Of a stretch of 64,000 nucleotides of DNA, positions 4,005 through 14,520 are shown piece after piece. Under the pieces are notes generated by a model that had not been told where the DNA came from, made no database searches, and worked only from the letters and a program-made list of their open reading frames with translations. Position 1 is the stretch's first letter. Each line of letters starts with the position of its first letter. Where the stretch lies: the NCBI GenBank assembly GCA_025060105.1, contig JANXCS010000003.1:211341-275340 (forward strand). Reading direction: 5' to 3'. A program made the position numbers and the translations under genes. This DNA comes from Pseudothermotoga sp. (GTDB lineage Bacteria > Thermotogota > Thermotogae > Thermotogales > DSM-5069).

Positions 4005-4754
4005 TCATTTGACCCCAGCCGCAGCGGCAATGAGGTCCATCACCTGCTGTGGTGTTACATGTTCTTTTTTGTACTCACCGATCTTCTCCCCACGCTCAAG
4101 GACGACCAATCTGTCTGCGACCTCGTAGACGTGGTAGATGTTGTGCGTGATGAAGATCACCGAAATTCCCCTCCTTTTGGCTTCCAAGATGTGCTCGAGC
4201 ACCCTTCTCGTTTCACCGACCGAAAGTGCGGCGGTCGGTTCATCCAAGATCAGCAACTTCGCTCCGAAATGGATCGCTCTGGCTATCGCCACAGCTTGTC
4301 TTTCACCACCGGATAGAAAGGCGACCGTGTCGTCGACGTTGCGCACACTTATCCCGATGTCTGCGAGAGCTTCCAGCGCGACCTTTCTCATTTTCTTCCT
4401 GTTCAACCACTTCACTGGTCCAAATCTGTGTACCAGTTCGCGACCCAAAAAGAAGTTGCGCCACAACGGCATGAGGTTGACCAACGCGAGATCTTGATAG
4501 ACAGTCTCTATACCAAGCTCACGAGCCTCACGTGGAGAACTGAACCTGACGCGTTTGCCTTCAAAATAGATCTCACCCTCGTCCGGTTGGTAGTAACCGA
4601 CCAAGACCTTTATCAAGGTGGATTTGCCTGCGCCGTTGTCTCCCAAAAGTCCGACCACTTCAGCTCGACCCACTGAGAAATCTACACCCTTCAGTGCCCT
4701 CACCTTACCGAAACTTTTTTTGATGTTCCTCATCTCAACGAGTGGCTGGTTCAT
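4005..4754 (-). CDS. Ribose-type (CUT2) ABC transporter ATP-binding protein, single domain
   Basis: A 249-residue ATPase with Walker A GDNGAGKST, signature FLSGGERQAVAIARA and Walker B LLILDEPTAAL. CUT2 ATPases such as RbsA usually carry two fused ATPase domains (about 500 residues). This one has a single domain, as in FrcA-type systems, so it presumably works as a homodimer. The start is ATG at 4754, overlapping the permease stop by 4 nt (ATGA); longer in-frame extensions run back into the permease gene and have no ribosome binding site. It couples ATP hydrolysis to import through the adjacent RbsC-like permease. Position directly after the iol genes suggests inositol or a related cyclitol as substrate. 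Confidence 0.9.
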   Translation of the reverse strand: MNQPLVEMRNIKKSFGKVRALKGVDFSVGRAEVVGLLGDNGAGKSTLIKVLVGYYQPDEGEIYFEGKRVRFSSPREARELGIETVYQDLALVNLMPLWRNFFLGRELVHRFGPVKWLNRKKMRKVALEALADIGISVRNVDDTVAFLSGGERQAVAIARAIHFGAKLLILDEPTAALSVGETRRVLEHILEAKRRGISVIFITHNIYHVYEVADRLVVLERGEKIGEYKKEHVTPQQVMDLIAAAAGVK

Positions 4755-5716
4755 CCCGCCACCTTCCTTCTGATCCTCGCGTTGATCACTGCCGCGATTA
4801 TCAGAATCACTCCGATGAACGCTCTGTACCAGTAAGCGGGTGCTCCAGCGAGCACCAAGCCGTTTCGAACCATGCTTATCATGAAAGCTCCGATGCACGC
4901 ACCGAGCACACTCCCATACCCACCTGTGAGCAAGGTGCCTCCCATCACGGCACTGGCGATCGCCTCGAGCTCGAGTTCTTGACCGAAGGTGGGATCAACC
5001 AACTTGAACCTTGCAAACGTCGTCAGGCCAGCAAAACCAGCCAAGACCGAGCACAGAACGAAGTTGATCAGTTTCACACTACCCGTCGCGATCCCCAAAG
5101 CCCTCGCGGCACCGAGACTACCGCCAGTGGCGAACACCCAGTTGCCGTACTGCGTTTGTTCCAAAATGATCGAAAAAATCAAGGCCAACACGACGAACCA
5201 GAGTGCCGAATACCTCAATCCTCCATAGATCCTGCCACCCAAGTACTGCAACATGTCTACTCTCCGAGCCAAGATGATGGGAAACCCACCGGTGACCGCC
5301 AAAAGAATCCCACGCCAAAACATCATCATTCCAAGCGTCGTTATGAAAGAAGGTATCCCAGTCTTGAGGGTCACCAACCCGTTCACCGCTCCGACCCCAA
5401 GACAGACCGCCAGAGAGACGACTAAAGACAGATACGGATCGTATCTGGAATTGACCATGGTTGCGAACACCATGGGTGCGACGGCGAACACGGAACCAAC
5501 AGACAGATCGAATTCACCGCTGATCATGAGCATCGCAACACCTATCGATATGATCCCCAGCTCGGCCGCCATCGTGAGTGTGTTGAAGAAATTTTCTACC
5601 GTCAAAAACCTGTTGGATAACGCGGAAAAGAGGACCAAAAAAACAGCGACACCGACTATGGCTCCAAACTCCTTTATTCTGAAAAAGCCCATCAAACTCG
5701 CTTGCTTGTTTTTCAA
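4751..5716 (-). CDS. Ribose-type (CUT2) ABC transporter permease
   Basis: A 321-residue RbsC/FrcC-like permease with many hydrophobic helices. The segment GLVTLKTGIPSFITTLGMMM and the downstream AIASAVMGGTLLTGGYGS are diagnostic of the branched-chain/ribose permease family. The start is TTG at 5716, preceded by a GGGGGG ribosome binding site. It follows the binding-protein gene after a 69-nt spacer holding a perfect 12-bp stem-loop, and its stop overlaps the ATPase start by 4 nt. A homodimer would form the membrane channel. Substrate by context: inositol or another polyol or sugar. Confidence 0.9.
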   Translation of the reverse strand: MKNKQASLMGFFRIKEFGAIVGVAVFLVLFSALSNRFLTVENFFNTLTMAAELGIISIGVAMLMISGEFDLSVGSVFAVAPMVFATMVNSRYDPYLSLVVSLAVCLGVGAVNGLVTLKTGIPSFITTLGMMMFWRGILLAVTGGFPIILARRVDMLQYLGGRIYGGLRYSALWFVVLALIFSIILEQTQYGNWVFATGGSLGAARALGIATGSVKLINFVLCSVLAGFAGLTTFARFKLVDPTFGQELELEAIASAVMGGTLLTGGYGSVLGACIGAFMISMVRNGLVLAGAPAYWYRAFIGVILIIAAVINARIRRKVAG

Positions 5717-5732
5717 ACGCTTCCCCCCTATG

Positions 5733-5760
5733 CAAGGGGTGGTCGAAAGACCACCCCTTG
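5733..5760 (-). promoter_or_regulatory. Intercistronic stem-loop between binding-protein and permease genes
   Basis: CAAGGGGTGGTC and GACCACCCCTTG form a perfect 12-bp stem with a GAAA/TTTC tetraloop. On the transcribed (minus) strand it is followed by GCATAGGGGG, not by a T-tract. It is therefore more likely to protect or process the mRNA 3' end of the binding-protein cistron than to terminate transcription. Confidence 0.75.
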
Positions 5761-5785
5761 TGAGTCGTGAGGGATCATTTTCGAT

Positions 5786-6715
5786 TCATCGATATCCCAG
5801 TTTTACGGTCTTTTCCACGATATCGACGTTGCTCTTATCGACGATGGAAGGTCCAGTCAAGATGTTTTCGTGAGGTATCAGACCGTACTCTTTGTAGAGG
5901 TACAGAAACACGATGGGTAGGTAACCTTGCAGATACTGCTGTTGATCGATCGTGAAGACCACGACACCTCTCTTGATCGCGTCCGTGATCCTCGTCGTCA
6001 GGTCGATCGCACCTATTTTGACTTTGCCCACCAGTTTTTCTTCCTCAACGAGTTGAATGGCTGGATGTGCACCCAACGGGCCAAGAGTGAAGATCGCATC
6101 GGTGTCTGGATATCTGGCGAGATAACTCTTCAGCAAGGTCAAAGCCTTGGTTGGATCGGTGGTTATGTCCAACTTTTCGGCAGGTATCTTCTTTTCCTTC
6201 AACACATCGATGATGCCTTTCGCTCTGGCTTCGAGTCCCACGTGGCCCGGTTCGTGTATGGCGATGACGGCGCGTTTGGGTGTGAACTCTTGAAGCATTC
6301 TTCTTCCCGCGTAGACTCCGGCCAGATACTCATCCATACCGACGTAGCACAGATACGGGATCTTCTGATCGATCGGTCGATCGTCTGGCACGTTGATCGC
6401 CACCACGGGTATCCCCATCTGGATCGCCCGTCTTATGGGTTCATCCAGAGCAACCGGGTTCGTCATCGTGACGATGAGACCATCGGGTTTTTTGGCTATC
6501 GCTGCGTTCACAAGATCGATGAACTCCTTCAGAGAAAACTTCTCAGGACCCAGATACACCGCTTCGACGCCGAACTTCGCAGCCGCATCTTTGACGCCTT
6601 TCATGACCACGCCCCAGAACGGATCGGCCGGTCCACCGTGTGAGACCACGTAGAACGTGTAGGCAAAGGCTGCAACCACCACCACGAGTAGAGCCACCAC
6701 AAGCAACCTTCTCAC
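5786..6715 (-). CDS. Ribose/inositol-type ABC transporter substrate-binding protein
   Basis: An RbsB-like periplasmic binding protein of about 309 residues (Peripla_BP_4 fold). The signal peptide reads VRRLLVVALLVVVVAAFA. The mature start FYVVSHGGPADPFWGVVMKG is the conserved first strand and helix of the family, and IGAIDLTTRI and VFTIDQQQYLQGY match later ligand-pocket segments. I prefer GTG at 6715 to the ATG six bases upstream, because the ATG touches the GGGGGG ribosome binding site while the GTG lies 6 nt from it. It is the first transport gene after iolN, separated by a small terminator-like hairpin. Known relatives bind ribose, galactose, inositol and similar sugars; inositol is inferred from the operon. 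Confidence 0.9.
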   Translation of the reverse strand: MRRLLVVALLVVVVAAFAYTFYVVSHGGPADPFWGVVMKGVKDAAAKFGVEAVYLGPEKFSLKEFIDLVNAAIAKKPDGLIVTMTNPVALDEPIRRAIQMGIPVVAINVPDDRPIDQKIPYLCYVGMDEYLAGVYAGRRMLQEFTPKRAVIAIHEPGHVGLEARAKGIIDVLKEKKIPAEKLDITTDPTKALTLLKSYLARYPDTDAIFTLGPLGAHPAIQLVEEEKLVGKVKIGAIDLTTRITDAIKRGVVVFTIDQQQYLQGYLPIVFLYLYKEYGLIPHENILTGPSIVDKSNVDIVEKTVKLGYR

Positions 6716-6733
6716 ACACATCCCCCCTGAAAA

Positions 6734-6752
6734 CGGGCGCGCGGGGCGCCCG
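6734..6752 (-). terminator. Terminator-like hairpin between iolN and the transporter genes
   Basis: On the transcribed strand CGGGCGC pairs with GCGCCCG (7 bp, 5-nt loop) and is followed by TTTT. The next gene in the same direction begins 18 nt later, so this is probably a partial attenuator that lowers or separates expression of the transport cistrons relative to the catabolic ones. Confidence 0.6.
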
Positions 6753-6757
6753 GTGTT

Positions 6758-7726
6758 TCACCACATATTAGCTATGCTGTATATGCTCCTCCATCCGGGA
6801 GATAGAGGTTCTTTCAACGCCGCATCGAGCTCTTCTTTTGATCTCTGTGACAGCTCGTGTGCTGGCGGCAGTTTTCCTGCTGGGAACCTTTCCATGATGT
6901 CTCTCACCAATTTTTCAAGATAGTCCAAAAACGCTTCGACTCCCTCTTTCGCTTTCTCCGCACTCGCAGCCGTAGCCTTTCCAACTACACCTTCTGGGTA
7001 TGCGACCACCTCGATCGGTCCACCTCCAACGTGTCCGTACCAAGCGATGGGTCTGTGCAACAAGTTTCCAGCTTTGTCTATGTGGCCTTCTGGGAGATAG
7101 CCACGCGGTTTGGTGTCCACGGCCCATTCTTGGTGGCAGAACTCGGGGAACAGCGCCAAACTCCAGGAGGTCTCGACCTCGTCTGCGTGGACGAACCTCG
7201 TTTCGTAAGGTCCACCTTCCTCTTTGGTTTTGAATTTGTCCTGGATCGCGTGGTACCAGTTCAAGTTGATGATTATTGCCGGCAGCTGGAAGATCTTGGC
7301 GAATTTGTGTATCGCGACGGGTATCACGAATTCTTGGCCATGGCCATTCAACAAGATCTGCTTTCTGAAACCCGTGTTCCAAAAACCAGCGATGACGCTG
7401 ACCAGATAATCTACGAAGGCTTCATCCTTCACAGGAACCGTTCCAGGCATGCCGATGTGGTGGTAAGGATGAAATCCGTACCATATCGGTTCTGCCACGG
7501 TACAACCAGTTTTCAACGCGACTTGCTCGGCCATGCGCGTGACCAAGAAGGTGTCTTCTCCAGTCGGTGCGTTGGGGCCGTGGTTTTCCGTGCTTCCGAC
7601 TGGGATGATTATCAAGTCGCACTTCTTCAGCCTATCTTGAATTTCTTTCATCGTCATCGTTTGAAAGTAGACTCCCGTAGGTCTCTCCATGTGCCCTCCT
7701 TCTGGAGGTATCTTCCACTTCGACAT
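6758..7726 (-). CDS. iolN: Creatininase-family hydrolase, IolN-like (3-dehydro-scyllo-inosose hydrolase)
   Basis: A 322-residue member of the creatininase/arginine-utilisation amidase fold. Metal-site motifs are visible: PVGSTENHG near residue 43, GEDTFLVTRMAEQ, LNGHGQEF, and an HADEVETSWSL segment supplying the late acidic ligand. In T. maritima, IolN is proposed to open the oxidised inositol ring to give 5-keto-L-gluconate; direct adjacency to iolG and iolM supports the same role here. The start is ATG at 7726, with TTGGAGGG 7 nt upstream; the ATG at 7732 abuts that site. The gene begins 2 nt after the iolG stop. A generic creatininase-family amidase is the fallback reading. Confidence 0.87.
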   Translation of the reverse strand: MSKWKIPPEGGHMERPTGVYFQTMTMKEIQDRLKKCDLIIIPVGSTENHGPNAPTGEDTFLVTRMAEQVALKTGCTVAEPIWYGFHPYHHIGMPGTVPVKDEAFVDYLVSVIAGFWNTGFRKQILLNGHGQEFVIPVAIHKFAKIFQLPAIIINLNWYHAIQDKFKTKEEGGPYETRFVHADEVETSWSLALFPEFCHQEWAVDTKPRGYLPEGHIDKAGNLLHRPIAWYGHVGGGPIEVVAYPEGVVGKATAASAEKAKEGVEAFLDYLEKLVRDIMERFPAGKLPPAHELSQRSKEELDAALKEPLSPGWRSIYSIANMW

Positions 7727-7728
7727 CT

Positions 7729-8715
7729 TCATCCCTCCAATTTCACGTGAGCGTTTCCACTCTCGACAGCTCTGTAACAAGCATCTATTATTCGAATGAC
7801 GGCAACACCGTCCGACACGGTGATGGGTGGCGTCGCTCTCTGCTTGACGCATTCCACGAAGAGCTTGTTTTCCTCGATGTAACCCCACTTTTCCTTGAAA
7901 TCGACTTTTGTGAAGTCGTGGCTCTCAACCTCTTTCCCCAGACCCTTACAGAAGTGCACCCTCTCCATCTCTTCGTTCATGAGCATGTTGTGTTCACCGT
8001 AAACTTCAACCCTTTCGAACGGGATCATCCAACTCGCGTGCGCGCAAGAAGTGAAGGTGCCAATGAGACCGTTCTTCAACTTCATGACGATCGCCCAATC
8101 GTCTATGTCTGGATAGACGCTCTTTTTACCCAACACGTACATCTCCTCGACTTCTCCCAAGAGCCACCTGACCATGTCGAACAGATGGATCGTGCTTTCG
8201 AACAAAAAACCACCAGTGTAGTTGCGATCGCTCGTCCAAGGCGGGTTCAACAGTTCTCCTCGATTCATCTTTATCTGGAAAGAGAGCGGTTTCACCGAAC
8301 CGTCCAGAATCTTCTGCTTCATGAATTTGTAAACGCTCGCGAAACGCCTGTTGTGTCCAACTTGAAAGATGAGGTTCTTTTCTTTGACTTTCTTTTCCAG
8401 CTCGATCGCATCCTTCAGAGAGATCGTCATGGGTTTTTCACAGAACACGTTCATGCCCAATTCGAGCGTCTGCATCGCATAGTCGAAGTGAGTTCTGTTC
8501 GGCGAGGTTATGTAAACTGCATTCACACCGGCATCCTTCATCTGCTTGAGGTTATCAAACACTTTTGCGTTGAATCTCTCTGCAACCGTTTTGGCTCGAT
8601 TCTTATCGACATCCATCACACCGACTATCTCAACGTCTGGAAAAGTCGACAGTATCTCCAAATGAACTTGGCCTATGAACCCACTCCCCACTACTCCTAT
8701 CCTGACTTTATCCAT
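7729..8715 (-). CDS. iolG: Inositol 2-dehydrogenase (Gfo/Idh/MocA family)
   Basis: A 328-residue NAD(P)-dependent oxidoreductase. The N-terminal Rossmann motif is GVVGSGFIGQVH, and the catalytic CEKPM motif (Lys) lies near residue 95; the substrate-side segment GGFLFESTIHLFDMVRWL carries the conserved HxxD (HLFD). In the inositol pathway this enzyme oxidises myo-inositol C2 to 2-keto-myo-inositol (scyllo-inosose) in the cytoplasm. The start is ATG at 8715, 8 nt after GAGAGG; a GTG three codons upstream overlaps the ribosome binding site. It lies between iolM and iolN with 12- and 2-nt spacing. Gfo/Idh/MocA enzymes are diverse, so the inositol assignment rests mainly on the cluster. Confidence 0.88.
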   Translation of the reverse strand: MDKVRIGVVGSGFIGQVHLEILSTFPDVEIVGVMDVDKNRAKTVAERFNAKVFDNLKQMKDAGVNAVYITSPNRTHFDYAMQTLELGMNVFCEKPMTISLKDAIELEKKVKEKNLIFQVGHNRRFASVYKFMKQKILDGSVKPLSFQIKMNRGELLNPPWTSDRNYTGGFLFESTIHLFDMVRWLLGEVEEMYVLGKKSVYPDIDDWAIVMKLKNGLIGTFTSCAHASWMIPFERVEVYGEHNMLMNEEMERVHFCKGLGKEVESHDFTKVDFKEKWGYIEENKLFVECVKQRATPPITVSDGVAVIRIIDACYRAVESGNAHVKLEG

Positions 8716-8727
8716 GCGTTTCACCTC

Positions 8728-9915
8728 TCATGGGTTGAGCATCGTGACCTTGACCAGCTCCTTGTCGGTCTGCAGTCTCTTTATGTACTCGGGGATCTCA
8801 TCTATCTTCACCGTCTTGGAGATGATCTTCGTCATGTCCATACCCGTGGCCATGAGGCTGATGACCCTTGGGAAGTTCCCATGACCCGAGTGACCCTGCG
8901 ACCCTACAACTTGAGCGCGCCTGACTTGCAACACTTCACCGGTGAGCGGTATCTTCACATCCGCCCTCGCCACGATGACGACGGTCGCGTTCACGCTCCT
9001 ACCTCTCCAGATGACTTCCTCTATGTCTTTCCAAACTATCTGTGGCAGTCCAGTCGCTTCCAAATACAGCTTGGCACCCATTCCGTTCGTACTGTCGAGA
9101 ACGGCTTCAACGAAGTTCTCTTTCGTTGGATCTATCACTACGTCGGCACCGAGTTGCTTAGCGATGTTCCTGCGTGTGGCTGCAGGTTCTGAGAGTATAA
9201 CCTTCGCAGCCCCAGCCCTCTTCAAGATGGCCACGGCCGCAAGCCCTATGGGTCCTCCTCCGAGGATCACCACATTGTCGCCAGGTCTGATGCCTCCTCC
9301 CCTCTCTATCACGGCGTTGTAAGCAACCGAAGTCGGTTCCACCAAACTACCAGCTAAGAATAGCCTGTCCCCCTCGTAAACACCTTCAAGTTCCTTCAAG
9401 CTCCACAGGTATTTGGACTCCAGAACGATGTACTCAGCGAAGGCACCGTCGACGTCGAACCCCATTTCGCGAAGATTTTCACAGTTGTTCGGATAACCAT
9501 CCGCACACGGTCTGCAATGTCCACACCAGAACATCTCTTCGGTAGTGACAGGCTCACCGGGTTCGAACCGCTTGTTCGTTCTCCTGTTGATCGCTTCTGG
9601 ACCGGCATCCACCACGATGCCAGAGAACTCGTGACCGAGGGTAACCGGAAAACCCGTCAAACCGGGGTAGAGAATGTAACCTTGTTCGTCGGTCTGAGCC
9701 ATGTGAACATCGCTACCACAGATCCCGCATGCCTTCACTTTCACGAGCACTTGCGTGGGTTTGGTGATCTTCGGCTCGGGTACGTTCTCAACACGTACCT
9801 CTGGATACCTCCACACCTTGCTGCCGAGCCAACAGAGTTTTCCCTCGACATCTTTCGGACCAAGTTTGAACCCAGGTCTTGGGTCCCATTTAGCATGCAA
9901 TCTGACCGCTTTCAT
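8728..9915 (-). CDS. iolM: Zn-dependent scyllo-inosose 3-dehydrogenase, IolM-like
   Basis: A 395-residue medium-chain alcohol dehydrogenase, as long as I recall for T. maritima TM0412 (IolM). The catalytic zinc segment is KACGICGSDVHMAQT followed by GHEFSGIV. Four cysteines in CGHCRPCADGYPNNC form the structural zinc lobe, and VILGGGPIGLAAVAIL is the NAD-binding Rossmann motif. IolM oxidises 2-keto-myo-inositol to a diketo-inositol, the substrate of IolN. It is the first gene of the leftward operon; the start is ATG at 9915 with GGGAGGG upstream. Other polyol dehydrogenases share the fold, but the iolG-iolN context makes this specific assignment likely. Confidence 0.9.
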   Translation of the reverse strand: MKAVRLHAKWDPRPGFKLGPKDVEGKLCWLGSKVWRYPEVRVENVPEPKITKPTQVLVKVKACGICGSDVHMAQTDEQGYILYPGLTGFPVTLGHEFSGIVVDAGPEAINRRTNKRFEPGEPVTTEEMFWCGHCRPCADGYPNNCENLREMGFDVDGAFAEYIVLESKYLWSLKELEGVYEGDRLFLAGSLVEPTSVAYNAVIERGGGIRPGDNVVILGGGPIGLAAVAILKRAGAAKVILSEPAATRRNIAKQLGADVVIDPTKENFVEAVLDSTNGMGAKLYLEATGLPQIVWKDIEEVIWRGRSVNATVVIVARADVKIPLTGEVLQVRRAQVVGSQGHSGHGNFPRVISLMATGMDMTKIISKTVKIDEIPEYIKRLQTDKELVKVTMLNP

Positions 9916-9982: not shown

Positions 9983-10109
9983 CCGATAATTGACGGTTAA
10001 GGTCAGTTGAAATGCCTTACGCTCGCATTTTCTTTGCTTTTCTTCTCTTTTCGTAAAATTTCCAACTCTTTTTGATGCTTTCGATTCTGATCTTCGTAAC
10101 TCGCCGTGC

Positions 10110-10115
10110 TATAAT
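10110..10115 (+). promoter_or_regulatory. -10 box of the deoR-uxaE-uxuB-larA operon
   Basis: A perfect TATAAT lies 20 nt upstream of the GTG start at 10135. No good -35 hexamer is seen at the matching distance; TTCTGA at 10085-10090 is the nearest, with 19-nt spacing. The site rules out any start codon upstream of it. Confidence 0.6.
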
Positions 10116-10134
10116 GCAAAAGGGGGTTGTGAAC

Positions 10135-10899
10135 GTGTTTACAGAAGAAAGAAGGAATATGATACTCGATATTCTGAAACGAAAAGGGAAGGTCACCGTA
10201 CAGGAACTCGTAGAAAAGTTCAACGTCAGCAGTGTCACGATACGAAAGGATTTGGAATTTCTCGAATCCAACGGTTCGATCGTTCGAACGCACGGTGGAG
10301 CGATATTGGCAGACCATTCTCGATCTGAATGGAATTTTTTGAAGAAGATACACCAAAAAGAAAACGAAAAGAGACGCATAGCAAGAAAGATCGTTTCCTT
10401 GATCGAAGACGGTGACACTGTGATCTTGGACAGCAGCAGCACCAATTATTACGTCACTTTCGAATTGAGACATGCGGAATTTTCTTCCATAACTGTGGTG
10501 ACGAACAACGTTTTCATAGCAGGGAAATTGATAGAGCAGGGAGTGGAGGTCATCGTGCTCGGCGGTGTGGTGAGGGAGAACAGTCTATCGCTCGTTGGAC
10601 CTTGGGCTTTGAGGTTCTTGGAGGAGATCAACGTGGACAAAGCGTTCCTAGGTACCACGGGCTTTTCGATAGACAAAGGTTTCATGACGCCGAGCATCGT
10701 CGAAGCTGACGTGAAGAGGGCCATGATAAGGAGCGCCTCGAAGGTGTACATCGTGACCGATTCCACCAAGTTCTACAGGAGTGCGTTCGCATCCTTCGCG
10801 ATGCCTGAAGATATCGACGGTATAATAACAGATCACGGCATACCAGAAGATTTCGAAAAGTTCTTGATCGAAAAAGGTGTCGAAGTGCACAAAGTGTGA
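10135..10899 (+). CDS. DeoR-family transcriptional regulator
   Basis: A 254-residue sugar-responsive regulator. The N-terminal DeoR helix-turn-helix signature is seen in RRNMILDILKRKGKVTVQEL and VSSVTIRKDLEFLESNG, followed by the usual RTHGGA. The C-terminal part is the phosphosugar-sensing, isomerase-like DeoRC domain with the IEDGDTVILDSSST, VTNN and GTTGFS segments. The start is GTG at 10135, 8 nt after GGGGG, giving VFTEERRN, the normal N-terminus for the family; earlier starts would include the -10 box. It is divergent from the iol operon and first in the uxaE operon, so it is the natural candidate to control both. The effector is probably a phosphorylated sugar or inositol derivative. 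Confidence 0.88.
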   Translation: MFTEERRNMILDILKRKGKVTVQELVEKFNVSSVTIRKDLEFLESNGSIVRTHGGAILADHSRSEWNFLKKIHQKENEKRRIARKIVSLIEDGDTVILDSSSTNYYVTFELRHAEFSSITVVTNNVFIAGKLIEQGVEVIVLGGVVRENSLSLVGPWALRFLEEINVDKAFLGTTGFSIDKGFMTPSIVEADVKRAMIRSASKVYIVTDSTKFYRSAFASFAMPEDIDGIITDHGIPEDFEKFLIEKGVEVHKV

Positions 10900-10913
10900 A
10901 GGGGGTTGATCTG

Positions 10914-12386
10914 ATGAACGAAGCGCTGAGAAAGTTCAAAGCTCAGCTGGCTGGAAAGTTCAGTACTTACGATGCGTCAGTTCGACAGACCGCCGATGCC
11001 ACGTTTTTCATGGCGAGGAATCAGAGTGCAAAACGTTTGATCGTCATGGGGAAGAAGGGGGTCTGTGCCCTGTTCGAGGGGGAAAAGATCGGAACCATCG
11101 ATCAATTGGACGTGCTTGCGTGTCCTCTCAACGATCACAACTGTGGGAGGTTGATGGAACTGCTCGTTTCCCTCAAGCCATCGATCTGTGATAAAAAGCT
11201 TTCGTTTGGTTTCGGTGATCGCATCGGAGTCGCAACGGCCGCACACGCACAAATCGTGAACAAAGACGAGGTGTTCCCCGTCTTTGCACAACAATCCGTC
11301 CGTGAAATAACGAGGACCGAGAGATCTTGGCGAGAGGTTCTCCACAGCGCCGTTTGGGGTGTCTTCGAGAGCGGTTACGATGGAGCCTTCGGCGCCGATG
11401 CCGATCATGTGAAAAAGATCGAAGATTTAGAGAGTGCCGCGCACGTGGGCTACACCATGTTCACGATCGATCCTTCTGACCACGTGAAAGACCCTACAAA
11501 GATCGATCGAAGAGAACTTGTGAACTTTTTTCAAGAACATCCCAAAAGGCGAGAGATCGCGTCCAAATACATCGGTAAAAGTTTCACCGTTTTAGATGAA
11601 AAACTCTCGTTCGACGAAGACAGTTTCGCCGAGATTTTCACAACTTACATCAGCGCCATAGAGCACGTGGAAAGTTGTTATAAGGCCCTGCGTGCCGTTC
11701 GTTCGAGAGGTTTCGACCTTGAAGTTTCCATAGACGAAACTTCCCTGCCGACGACACCACTCGCACACATATTTTTCGTTCAAGAATTGAGGAGGCGTGG
11801 GGTAGATTTCCAAACGCTCGCGCTCAGATTCCCCGGAGAATGGCAGAAAGGCATCGATTACATAGGTGATACAGACCAATTTTCCAAAGAACTCGAAAAA
11901 CACGTCGCCATAGTGAAAATGCTCTCAGGATACAAGCTTTCTTTGCATTCAGGTAGCGACAAGTTCAGCGTGTATCCAGTTTTGGCTGAGAAAACGGAAA
12001 GAACGGTGCACGTCAAAACGGCCGGAACCAGCTATCTCGAAGCGATCAGAACGGTTGCGAAGTTTGCTCCCGATTTGTACAGAGAGATTCACAAATTCGC
12101 ACTGTCGAGGTTCGAACAGGACAGAGCCTCGTACCATGTCACAACGAACTTGTCGAGGGTTCCGAACGTGGACGAAGTTTCAGATTCAAATCTTTCAGAT
12201 CTTCTCGATCAGCCAGACGTGCGTCAAGTCATCCACATAACTTACGGTTCTGTTCTGACTGCGAAAGAATCTGGTAAAACTCTCTTCAAAGATCGTATAA
12301 TGAAAGTGTTGTTTGAACATGAGGATGAACACTACAACTTTTTGAAATCACATCTTGGAAAACATCTAAAACTGCTCGGCGCATGA
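10914..12386 (+). CDS. uxaE: Tagaturonate/fructuronate epimerase UxaE
   Basis: A 490-residue cytosolic enzyme matching the UxaE family first described from T. maritima, which epimerises D-tagaturonate to D-fructuronate. Distinctive segments are SFGFGDRIGVATAAHA near residue 100, GADADHVK, DETSLPTTPLAHIFFVQEL and LSLHSGSDKFSVYP, followed by VKTAGTSYLEA; their His, Asp and Glu residues are plausible metal ligands. The start is ATG at 10914, 8 nt after GGGGG; the region immediately upstream overlaps the end of the regulator. The next gene, a fructuronate-reductase-like SDR, begins 10 nt downstream. UxaE here connects tagaturonate from inositol (through IolN and a missing epimerase) or from galacturonate to the fructuronate branch. 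Confidence 0.88.
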   Translation: MNEALRKFKAQLAGKFSTYDASVRQTADATFFMARNQSAKRLIVMGKKGVCALFEGEKIGTIDQLDVLACPLNDHNCGRLMELLVSLKPSICDKKLSFGFGDRIGVATAAHAQIVNKDEVFPVFAQQSVREITRTERSWREVLHSAVWGVFESGYDGAFGADADHVKKIEDLESAAHVGYTMFTIDPSDHVKDPTKIDRRELVNFFQEHPKRREIASKYIGKSFTVLDEKLSFDEDSFAEIFTTYISAIEHVESCYKALRAVRSRGFDLEVSIDETSLPTTPLAHIFFVQELRRRGVDFQTLALRFPGEWQKGIDYIGDTDQFSKELEKHVAIVKMLSGYKLSLHSGSDKFSVYPVLAEKTERTVHVKTAGTSYLEAIRTVAKFAPDLYREIHKFALSRFEQDRASYHVTTNLSRVPNVDEVSDSNLSDLLDQPDVRQVIHITYGSVLTAKESGKTLFKDRIMKVLFEHEDEHYNFLKSHLGKHLKLLGA

Positions 12387-12396
12387 AAGGAGTGTG

Positions 12397-13227
12397 ATGG
12401 ATGTGAACGAAGCGTACAAACTTTTCAGTCTGGAGGGGAAGGTCGTCGTCATCACGGGTGGTGCGGGGATCCTCGGCTCAGCGATAGGTGAGGGAATGGC
12501 GAGGTTCGGAGCGAGCATCGCCATTTGTGACATCAGAAACTACGAAGAGAGGGCAAACGAGTTCAGATCCAAAGGCTTGAACGCTCGTGGTTATTACATG
12601 GATGTGTTGAACATCGAAAGCATAAGGAAGGCCCACGATGAGATACTCAAAGACTTCGGTAAGGTGGATGTGTTGATCAACGCCGCGGGTGGGAACATAC
12701 CCGAGGCGACCACATCGCCACAGCTGAGCTTCTTCGATATCCCACTCGAATCACTCCAGAAAGTCGTTGGACTGAATCTGTTCGGCGGTGCGATACTACC
12801 TTCACAAGTGTTTGGAAAAACGCTGGTGAAGAATCCAGAAGGTGGTTCCATCATAAACATCTCTTCGATGTCGGCTTACAGACCATTGACACGGGTCCTT
12901 GGATATTCTGCGGCCAAGGCGGCGGTGAGCAACTTCACTCAATGGCTCGCGGTGCACATGGCCATGGAATACAGCAAGAAAGTGAGAGTCAACGCGATCG
13001 CACCCGGATTTTTCTTGACCCATCAGAACAGATACCTCCTGTTGGACGAGCAGGGGAATCTGACGGCGAGGGGCAAGGCTATAATCGATCATACACCCAT
13101 GGGTAGGTTCGGCGATCCAGAAGACCTCATCGGTGCGTGTGTGTGGCTCGCTTCCGACGCTTCAAAGTTCGTCACCGGCGCGGTCATCCCGATCGATGGA
13201 GGTTTCAACGCCTACGCGGGTGTGTAA
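12397..13227 (+). CDS. uxuB: SDR-family D-mannonate oxidoreductase (fructuronate reductase)
   Basis: A 276-residue short-chain dehydrogenase. The cofactor motif is GGAGILGSAIG, the structural NAG equivalent is INAAGG, and the catalytic Ser-Tyr-Lys set is visible as SSMSAYRP and YSAAKAA; the family ending DGGFNAYAGV is intact. SDR-type fructuronate reductases of Thermotoga convert D-fructuronate to D-mannonate and sit beside uxaE, as here. The start is ATG at 12397 after AAGGAG; a GTG one codon upstream is less likely. Spacing is 10 nt to uxaE and 15 nt to the LarA-family gene. Substrate identity is from synteny; a gluconate 5-dehydrogenase reading is possible because those SDRs are close relatives. 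Confidence 0.82.
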   Translation: MDVNEAYKLFSLEGKVVVITGGAGILGSAIGEGMARFGASIAICDIRNYEERANEFRSKGLNARGYYMDVLNIESIRKAHDEILKDFGKVDVLINAAGGNIPEATTSPQLSFFDIPLESLQKVVGLNLFGGAILPSQVFGKTLVKNPEGGSIINISSMSAYRPLTRVLGYSAAKAAVSNFTQWLAVHMAMEYSKKVRVNAIAPGFFLTHQNRYLLLDEQGNLTARGKAIIDHTPMGRFGDPEDLIGACVWLASDASKFVTGAVIPIDGGFNAYAGV

Positions 13228-13242
13228 TGAAAGGTGGTACAC

Positions 13243-14520
13243 ATGAAATGCATCGAGCGTTTGGAAGGTTGTCTCGATCGAGATGAAATGAAACGATTAG
13301 TCGAAGAGACCTTACCAGATAGAGATCTTCAGAAGGTTCTTTTGATCCATCCAGACTACACGCGCGTGGACTTCTCATCCACGTTGGTTCCCATCGTTCA
13401 TCGAGAGCTGAAAAAGAGGGGATTGAAGACTCTCCACACGCTGAACGCCAGCGGTACACACAGGGCCATGAGCGAGCAAGAAGTCAGAAAGAAGCTCGGC
13501 CTGTTCAACGAAGACTTCGTGATGTTCAACCATGAGTACGCCAATCCGAACGCGCTGATGAACGTTGGAGAACTCAGCGCGGAGTTCGTGAGCCAAAAAA
13601 CGATGGGAGATCTTCAACAACCTCTTCCAGTCACGCTCAACAGATTGTTCTTCGAGAAGTACGATCTCATCATCGTTCTGAGTGGTACTTCCCCACACGA
13701 ATCCACTGGATTTTCTGGTGGATTGAAATCCATCGTTCCAGGCATCGCTGGTCCCGACGTCGTTGGGCTCTTCCATTGGGCTGCCGTTTTGATAGGCATA
13801 CCGAGGCTGATCGGATTGATCGACAATCCGGCCAGAGATGTGATCAACGAAGCTTGCAGGATGGCTTTCCAAAAGGTTCGTTCACCTGTGATCTTTTACA
13901 ACATGGTCTACGAAGAAACCTCCAGCGGAGTTCTGGCAAAAGGCCTTTACTGTGGAAACGGATACGAAGGAGCCTTGGAGGCGTACAGGCGCGCGGCCGA
14001 AGCGAGCAAGAAGGTCCACATAGTGTACATCGATAAACCTGTGAAGCGCGCCGTGCAGGTCATCGATGAAAATTACGACGAAATATGGACGGCTGGGAAA
14101 GGTTCTTACAAGTTGCAACGGCCCGGTGTGATAGAACCTGGTGGAGAGATCATCATTTATGCTCCTCACATAAAGATCTTCCATTCGAACAGAGACATGG
14201 ATCGAGCCATCCGGCAGATCGGTTATCACTGCAAAGATTACGTGAAAGAGTTTTTGAAGAAGCACCCAAACTTCGACAGAAACGTTGCGGCGCACGTGAT
14301 AAACGTCCGTGGTGATGGTAGGTACGATCCCAAAACTGGCAAAGAAGAATGTCTATTCAACGTGACCTTGGCCACGAGTATAAGCAAAGAAGAATGTGAA
14401 GCCGTGTCGTTGGGGTACAGGTCACCTCAATCGATAAGACGTGAAGATTTCTTGAATGAAGATTCTCTGTGGATAGAACACGGAGGAAAGTTCCTCTACG
14501 AACTTCGTAAAAACGAGTGA
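13243..14520 (+). CDS. LarA-family nickel-pincer hydroxyacid epimerase (predicted hexonate 2-epimerase)
   Basis: A 425-residue protein of the lactate racemase superfamily. The residues that hold nickel and its pincer cofactor in L. plantarum LarA appear to be present: R41 in PDYTRVD, H73 in ASGTHRAM, H152 in GTSPHES, K162 in SGGLKSIVPGIAG and H178 in GLFHWAA. The spacings H-K of 10 and K-H of 16 are the same as those of LarA H174, K184 and H200. Lactate makes little sense in this operon. A D-gluconate 2-epimerase is known in the superfamily, and D-mannonate, the product of the preceding gene, is the C2 epimer of D-gluconate. The start is ATG at 13243 after AAAGGTGG. LarB, LarC and LarE cofactor genes are not in the window. 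Confidence 0.85.
   Translation: MKCIERLEGCLDRDEMKRLVEETLPDRDLQKVLLIHPDYTRVDFSSTLVPIVHRELKKRGLKTLHTLNASGTHRAMSEQEVRKKLGLFNEDFVMFNHEYANPNALMNVGELSAEFVSQKTMGDLQQPLPVTLNRLFFEKYDLIIVLSGTSPHESTGFSGGLKSIVPGIAGPDVVGLFHWAAVLIGIPRLIGLIDNPARDVINEACRMAFQKVRSPVIFYNMVYEETSSGVLAKGLYCGNGYEGALEAYRRAAEASKKVHIVYIDKPVKRAVQVIDENYDEIWTAGKGSYKLQRPGVIEPGGEIIIYAPHIKIFHSNRDMDRAIRQIGYHCKDYVKEFLKKHPNFDRNVAAHVINVRGDGRYDPKTGKEECLFNVTLATSISKEECEAVSLGYRSPQSIRREDFLNEDSLWIEHGGKFLYELRKNE

Follow-up and report, generated by a model that had tools for sequence, protein, structure and literature searches.

A LarA-family ortholog of the D-mannonate/D-gluconate 2-epimerase GntE2 predicted in Pseudothermotoga, in a genome without recognised larB, larC or larE

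The LarA-family gene gntE, in the 64,000-nucleotide stretch of Pseudothermotoga sp. DNA analysed here (the window), is with a probability of about 85% the Pseudothermotoga ortholog of the gene for Thermotoga maritima GntE2, and its product is predicted to bind the nickel-pincer (NPN) cofactor and to interconvert D-mannonate and D-gluconate by epimerisation. The enzyme is a thermophilic GntE ortholog, an ordinary relative of a known enzyme, and adds little by itself; the genome context matters more. The window's family, several of whose genomes are closed, offers a clean case of conserved NPN enzymes occurring without any of the known synthesis genes, of which there are three. If the LarA proteins of this family carry NPN, either organisms share this organometallic cofactor with one another or there is a second pathway to it.

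Identity of the window protein and its active site

The gntE reading frame begins with an ATG, nine bases downstream of an in-frame GTG, and encodes 425 amino acids (Table 1). The best match of the protein in the PDB is 4NAR (E=1.9e-164), and since it extends over nearly the full length, chance is excluded; lactate and malate racemases are far behind among the solved structures matched. The N-terminal region scores 82.8 bits with the Pfam model Lar_N, against a gathering cut-off of 23.3. Identity to the Thermotoga ortholog at L063, which we take to be the T. maritima locus encoding GntE2, is 61%. In the phylogenetic tree the gene falls within the well-supported clade of its own family (100/99), beside other Thermotogota. 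With the NCBIfam model NPN_18_hexonate (NF052594) the protein reaches 199.5 bits, below the curated cut-off of 500, and it therefore lies outside that sister group; it is also far below the cut-offs of the NCBIfam malate and lactate racemase models.

Table 1. Features of the hexuronate operon and the other LarA genes of the genome
Feature	Position	Strand	Basis
DeoR-family regulator, head of operon (longest reading frame from 10072)	10105..10899	+	PF00455, PF08220
uxaE, tagaturonate/fructuronate epimerase	10896..12386	+	Pfam PF16257, 623 bits
uxaD, SDR-family D-mannonate oxidoreductase (fructuronate reductase)	12394..13227	+	NCBIfam PRK08277, 356.9 bits vs cut-off 281
Ribosome-binding site of gntE, AAAGGTGG	13230..13237	+	Sequence read directly; good site
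gntE, predicted LarA-family D-mannonate/D-gluconate 2-epimerase, ortholog of T. maritima TM0442/GntE2	13243..14520	+	4NAR match, Lar_N, residues
Second LarA, malate racemase LarAH6 family	L079:9116-10390	-	NCBIfam, 579 bits vs cut-off 500
Third LarA	L080:8998-10278	+	Lar_N; arginine aligns with catalytic lysine

GntE2 (4NAR) is a LarA homolog of T. maritima for which genomic context had suggested D-gluconate 2-epimerase activity before it was assayed (PMC7583248). In vitro it converts D-mannonate to D-gluconate with a kcat of 197 per second, a Km of 17 mM, and an optimum at 80-90 C; its residue map names R41, K164, and H180 as NPN contacts and E155, S156, G286, and N348 as substrate residues, besides four catalytic residues (PMC7583248). 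The window protein resembles this enzyme, also named LarAH20, along its full length, with the same NPN, catalytic, and substrate-loop residues. Two other members of the superfamily, GntE1/LarAH19 of Corynebacterium glutamicum and LarAH15 of Phytophthora nicotianae, are also assayed D-gluconate 2-epimerases (PMC7583248, PMC11770544); they are set apart from the window protein by description, as members of more distant LarA groups with other genomic contexts.

The LarA-type nickel-pincer site of the window protein is complete. The preliminary description had listed R41, H73, H152, K162, and H178, with spacings of 10 from histidine to lysine and 16 from lysine to histidine, and all of these are found exactly as stated, together with D38 and K286. 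The NPN contacts R41, K162, and H178 correspond to R75, K184, and H200 of LarA, and the catalytic residues D38, H73, H152, and K286 to D72, H108, H174, and K298. The hexonate-type substrate pattern (glutamate and serine or valine after the second histidine, a tryptophan, a glycine before the catalytic lysine, and an asparagine) is matched by E153, S154, W282, G285, and N347. LarA lactate racemase and Mar2 malate racemase share the catalytic and NPN-binding residues and have a weak but significant similarity in the N-terminal domain, whereas their substrate-loop residues differ from those of the window protein.

Across the aligned GntE orthologs D38, R41, H73, H152, E153, K162, H178, and K286 are invariant, whether or not LarC is present in the genome. 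Within the window's family, which lacks LarC, dN/dS is about 0.03-0.07 for the pairs where it could be computed, similar to the values in Thermotoga. Judged from these alignments, the GntE active site is under strong purifying selection in lineages without larB, larC, and larE.

By analogy with GntE2, NPN would be held by K162 and H178, with R41, and C2 of D-mannonate would be inverted to give D-gluconate, and the reverse, through proton-coupled hydride transfer. H73 and H152 may serve as alternating acid and base, while E153 and S154 may help to hold the hexonate. We infer the activity and the use of NPN in the window species, with the native direction and substrate taken from the T. maritima enzyme. 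The preliminary description had proposed a mannonate/gluconate 2-epimerase; with an assayed GntE2 that is 61% identical and encoded in the same operon, this function is very likely right as a prediction from sequence. Counted against the assignment to GntE2 are the missing larB, larC, and larE, the failure to find a kinase, and the high Km of GntE2 for mannonate.

The hexuronate operon and the proposed route to gluconate

The regulator, uxaE, uxaD, and gntE lie in one direction, with overlaps or with gaps of fewer than 20 bases. The order uxaE-uxaD-gntE is conserved, including at the T. maritima locus, and uxaD adjoins gntE in most of the Thermotogota loci examined. It had been stated that the gene follows an enzyme predicted to make D-mannonate; since the product of uxaD exceeds the NCBIfam cut-off for D-mannonate oxidoreductase (357 against 281 bits), this claim is sound. 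The regulator is a GntR-family protein, UxaR, in Thermotoga, whereas a DeoR-family protein takes its place in the window organism and is kept, as cluster 10, in the window's family, f11, and G004. In T. maritima gntE-gntK is listed in the UxaR regulon (PMC3750489).

UxuA (523 bits) and 6-phosphogluconate dehydrogenase (Gnd; 354 bits, and 591 bits with TIGR00873) are both encoded in the window genome. With gntE placed behind uxaE and uxaD in a single operon, the carbon of D-mannonate formed from galacturonate or glucuronate would have two routes: dehydration by UxuA, or epimerisation to gluconate by GntE, followed by phosphorylation and then oxidation by 6-phosphogluconate dehydrogenase.

The kinase of the second route is the missing step. 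The gene 3' of gntE is an FGGY gluconate kinase in T. maritima, whereas no kinase is adjacent in the window organism, and in the window's genus the gene at this place was identified by eye as that of ribosomal protein S2. Comparison of the FGGY kinases of the window genome yielded no ortholog of the Thermotoga gluconate kinase: xylulokinase or glycerol kinase is their best-scoring assignment, and they share 23-31% identity with Thermotoga GntK. Thermotoga GntK is itself below the TIGR01314 cut-off, and therefore the scoring of the FGGY proteins in the window genome excludes no kinase.

In four Thermotogota families a gene resembling PPi-phosphofructokinase (diphosphate-phosphofructokinase) and an unassigned gene, HAD-like as judged by eye, are found 3' of gntE (phosphofructokinase-like genes at L075:4481-5845 and L074:4736-5908, with equivalents in L060-L062, L071, L073, and L076). 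These four families are without an adjacent gluconate kinase, and it is possible that the phosphofructokinase-like gene is a replacement kinase for gluconate or mannonate.

Of the nickel-dependent branch from the hexuronate pathway to gluconate that had been suggested for the window organism, the predicted epimerase and Gnd are present; a gluconate kinase was not found in its genome, and the term nickel-dependent is not secured for its enzyme. The branch is also not new, having been proposed by Rodionova et al. in 2012, as cited in PMC6978723. Function and branch go back to predictions of 2012, and the activity was demonstrated in 2020.

Beside the operon, at 4754-9915, is a divergently oriented inositol catabolic cluster. 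Its IolM (scyllo-inosose 3-dehydrogenase) and IolN (3-dehydro-scyllo-inosose hydrolase) are above their NCBIfam cut-offs, and it also contains an inositol-dehydrogenase-like gene and ABC transporter genes. This neighbourhood is conserved in the window's genus, g4, and f11.

Cofactor genes and the possible source of NPN

The window genome (99% complete, 21 contigs) carries three intact LarA (Lar_N) genes. T. maritima has larC-larB-larE, whereas in the window organism all three are missing. In profile searches of its genome, in which the T. maritima positive control was matched by each profile, larC had no match at all, and the LarB- and LarE-like matches were all below cut-off. The LarB-like match is PurE, over PurE's own cut-off, and was rejected as a hidden LarB. 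Five of the six LarE-like matches were rejected likewise, being known PP-loop enzymes (two NadE-type proteins, GuaA, TilS, and a TtuA-like protein). The presence of larB, larC, and larE had been put forward as a check on the prediction, and it came out negative: the three genes are absent here and throughout the window's family (11 of 11 genomes, five of them single-contig), although every one of these genomes has Lar_N genes. The cofactor is therefore without a known source. Given an active site that does not vary and that strong purifying selection maintains, this absence is not taken to refute the enzyme.

The pattern extends beyond the family. Lar_N is matched in 53 of 103 Thermotogota genomes and LarC in only 15 of the 103; LarB and LarE exceed their cut-offs in what is essentially the same set of genomes as LarC, and in most of these the three genes are adjacent. 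In other phyla 21 genomes with GntE were reached; LarC is present in 14 of them, and the remainder are mostly draft genomes of one Atribacterota clade. The opposite mismatch also occurs, in that three draft Thermotogota genomes (G009, G010, and G014) have LarC with no Lar_N gene detected; larBCE without larA is a reverse puzzle that has been discussed (PMC11796402). In G004 a divergent LarA (L072:5576-7015), 28% identical to GntE, has a LarE fragment directly downstream of it, where the contig ends.

It is probable that Pseudothermotoga and several other Thermotogota families use NPN enzymes without LarB, LarC, or LarE and draw on a source yet to be described, by uptake or by a second, non-homologous route. 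In the window's family this could mean uptake of NPN or of a precursor, or synthesis by enzymes that are unrelated to the known ones or too divergent to be recognised. On larA without larBCE, or on NPN salvage, nothing was found in the literature searched, which excluded the 2014 lar survey (PMC4066177).

An undescribed source would be needless if the cofactor genes were present and had been missed, through assembly gaps or extreme divergence. The 21 contigs of the window genome leave room for gaps, but nine single-contig Thermotogota genomes bear LarA and lack all three families, and five of the nine belong to the window's family; therefore the absence is not due to an assembly gap. As to divergence, the sixth LarE-like match is an orphan PP-loop protein of 326 amino acids (L129:9161-10141, minus strand) with 34.6 bits on the LarE profile, a C-x-x-C pair, a further cysteine, and a weak likeness to LarE and to GMP and NAD synthases. 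Its gene stands in a housekeeping locus, between mfd and a phosphodiesterase/glucokinase/rho cluster, and no LarC candidate accompanies it; as a LarE-like protein it may be considered a weak lead. Where the genes exist, LarC reaches 254 bits or more with the same profiles and LarB and LarE mostly exceed 180 bits, and the remaining LarB- and LarE-like matches have the other assignments given above. Overall, it seems unlikely that the genes were overlooked.

The absence of all three known synthesis genes from the 11 family genomes would also be expected if the family's LarA proteins were still made but had lost NPN and worked with another cofactor or in another mode, for instance as binding proteins or with a simpler metal site. 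Against this, no variation is seen in the nickel ligand H178, the tethering lysine K162, the NPN contact R41, or the two catalytic histidines, and they are kept in the malate-racemase-like paralog as well. Loss of the cofactor should relax such positions, yet dN/dS is as low as in the LarC-bearing Thermotoga. Such a loss is thus rather improbable, and for the window's family an NPN source that goes unrecognised appears more likely than an inactive enzyme.

Other LarA proteins of the genome

The two paralogs of gntE, at L079 and L080, fall on the lactate and malate racemase side of the superfamily. Both retain the NPN and catalytic residues, with one exception: at L080 an arginine stands where the catalytic lysine would be. 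From these sequences the window organism appears to use NPN enzymes generally, and the retention of three NPN-type enzymes in separate pathways has been taken here as an argument that the cofactor is available. No candidate cofactor gene shared by the neighbourhoods of all three LarA genes was found, only transporters and genes of carbon metabolism.

That the window enzyme acts instead as a racemase or epimerase of lactate, malate, or an aldarate is very unlikely: promiscuity is common among LarA homologs (PMC11770544), and the Km of Corynebacterium GntE1 for mannonate is high (PMC7583248), but E153/S154, W282, and N347 match GntE2, the operon makes D-mannonate, the racemase models remain far below cut-off, and malate- and lactate-type roles are held by the separate paralogs in their own transport clusters.

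The second LarA is flanked by genes for malic enzyme, a galactarate/altronate dehydratase-like protein, and a Tct-type transporter. Near the third are genes for a GlcD-type FAD oxidase, electron-transfer flavoprotein-like proteins, a Tct transporter, and 2-hydroxyacid dehydrogenases. The arginine at the position of the catalytic lysine is shared by this third LarA and its closest orthologs.
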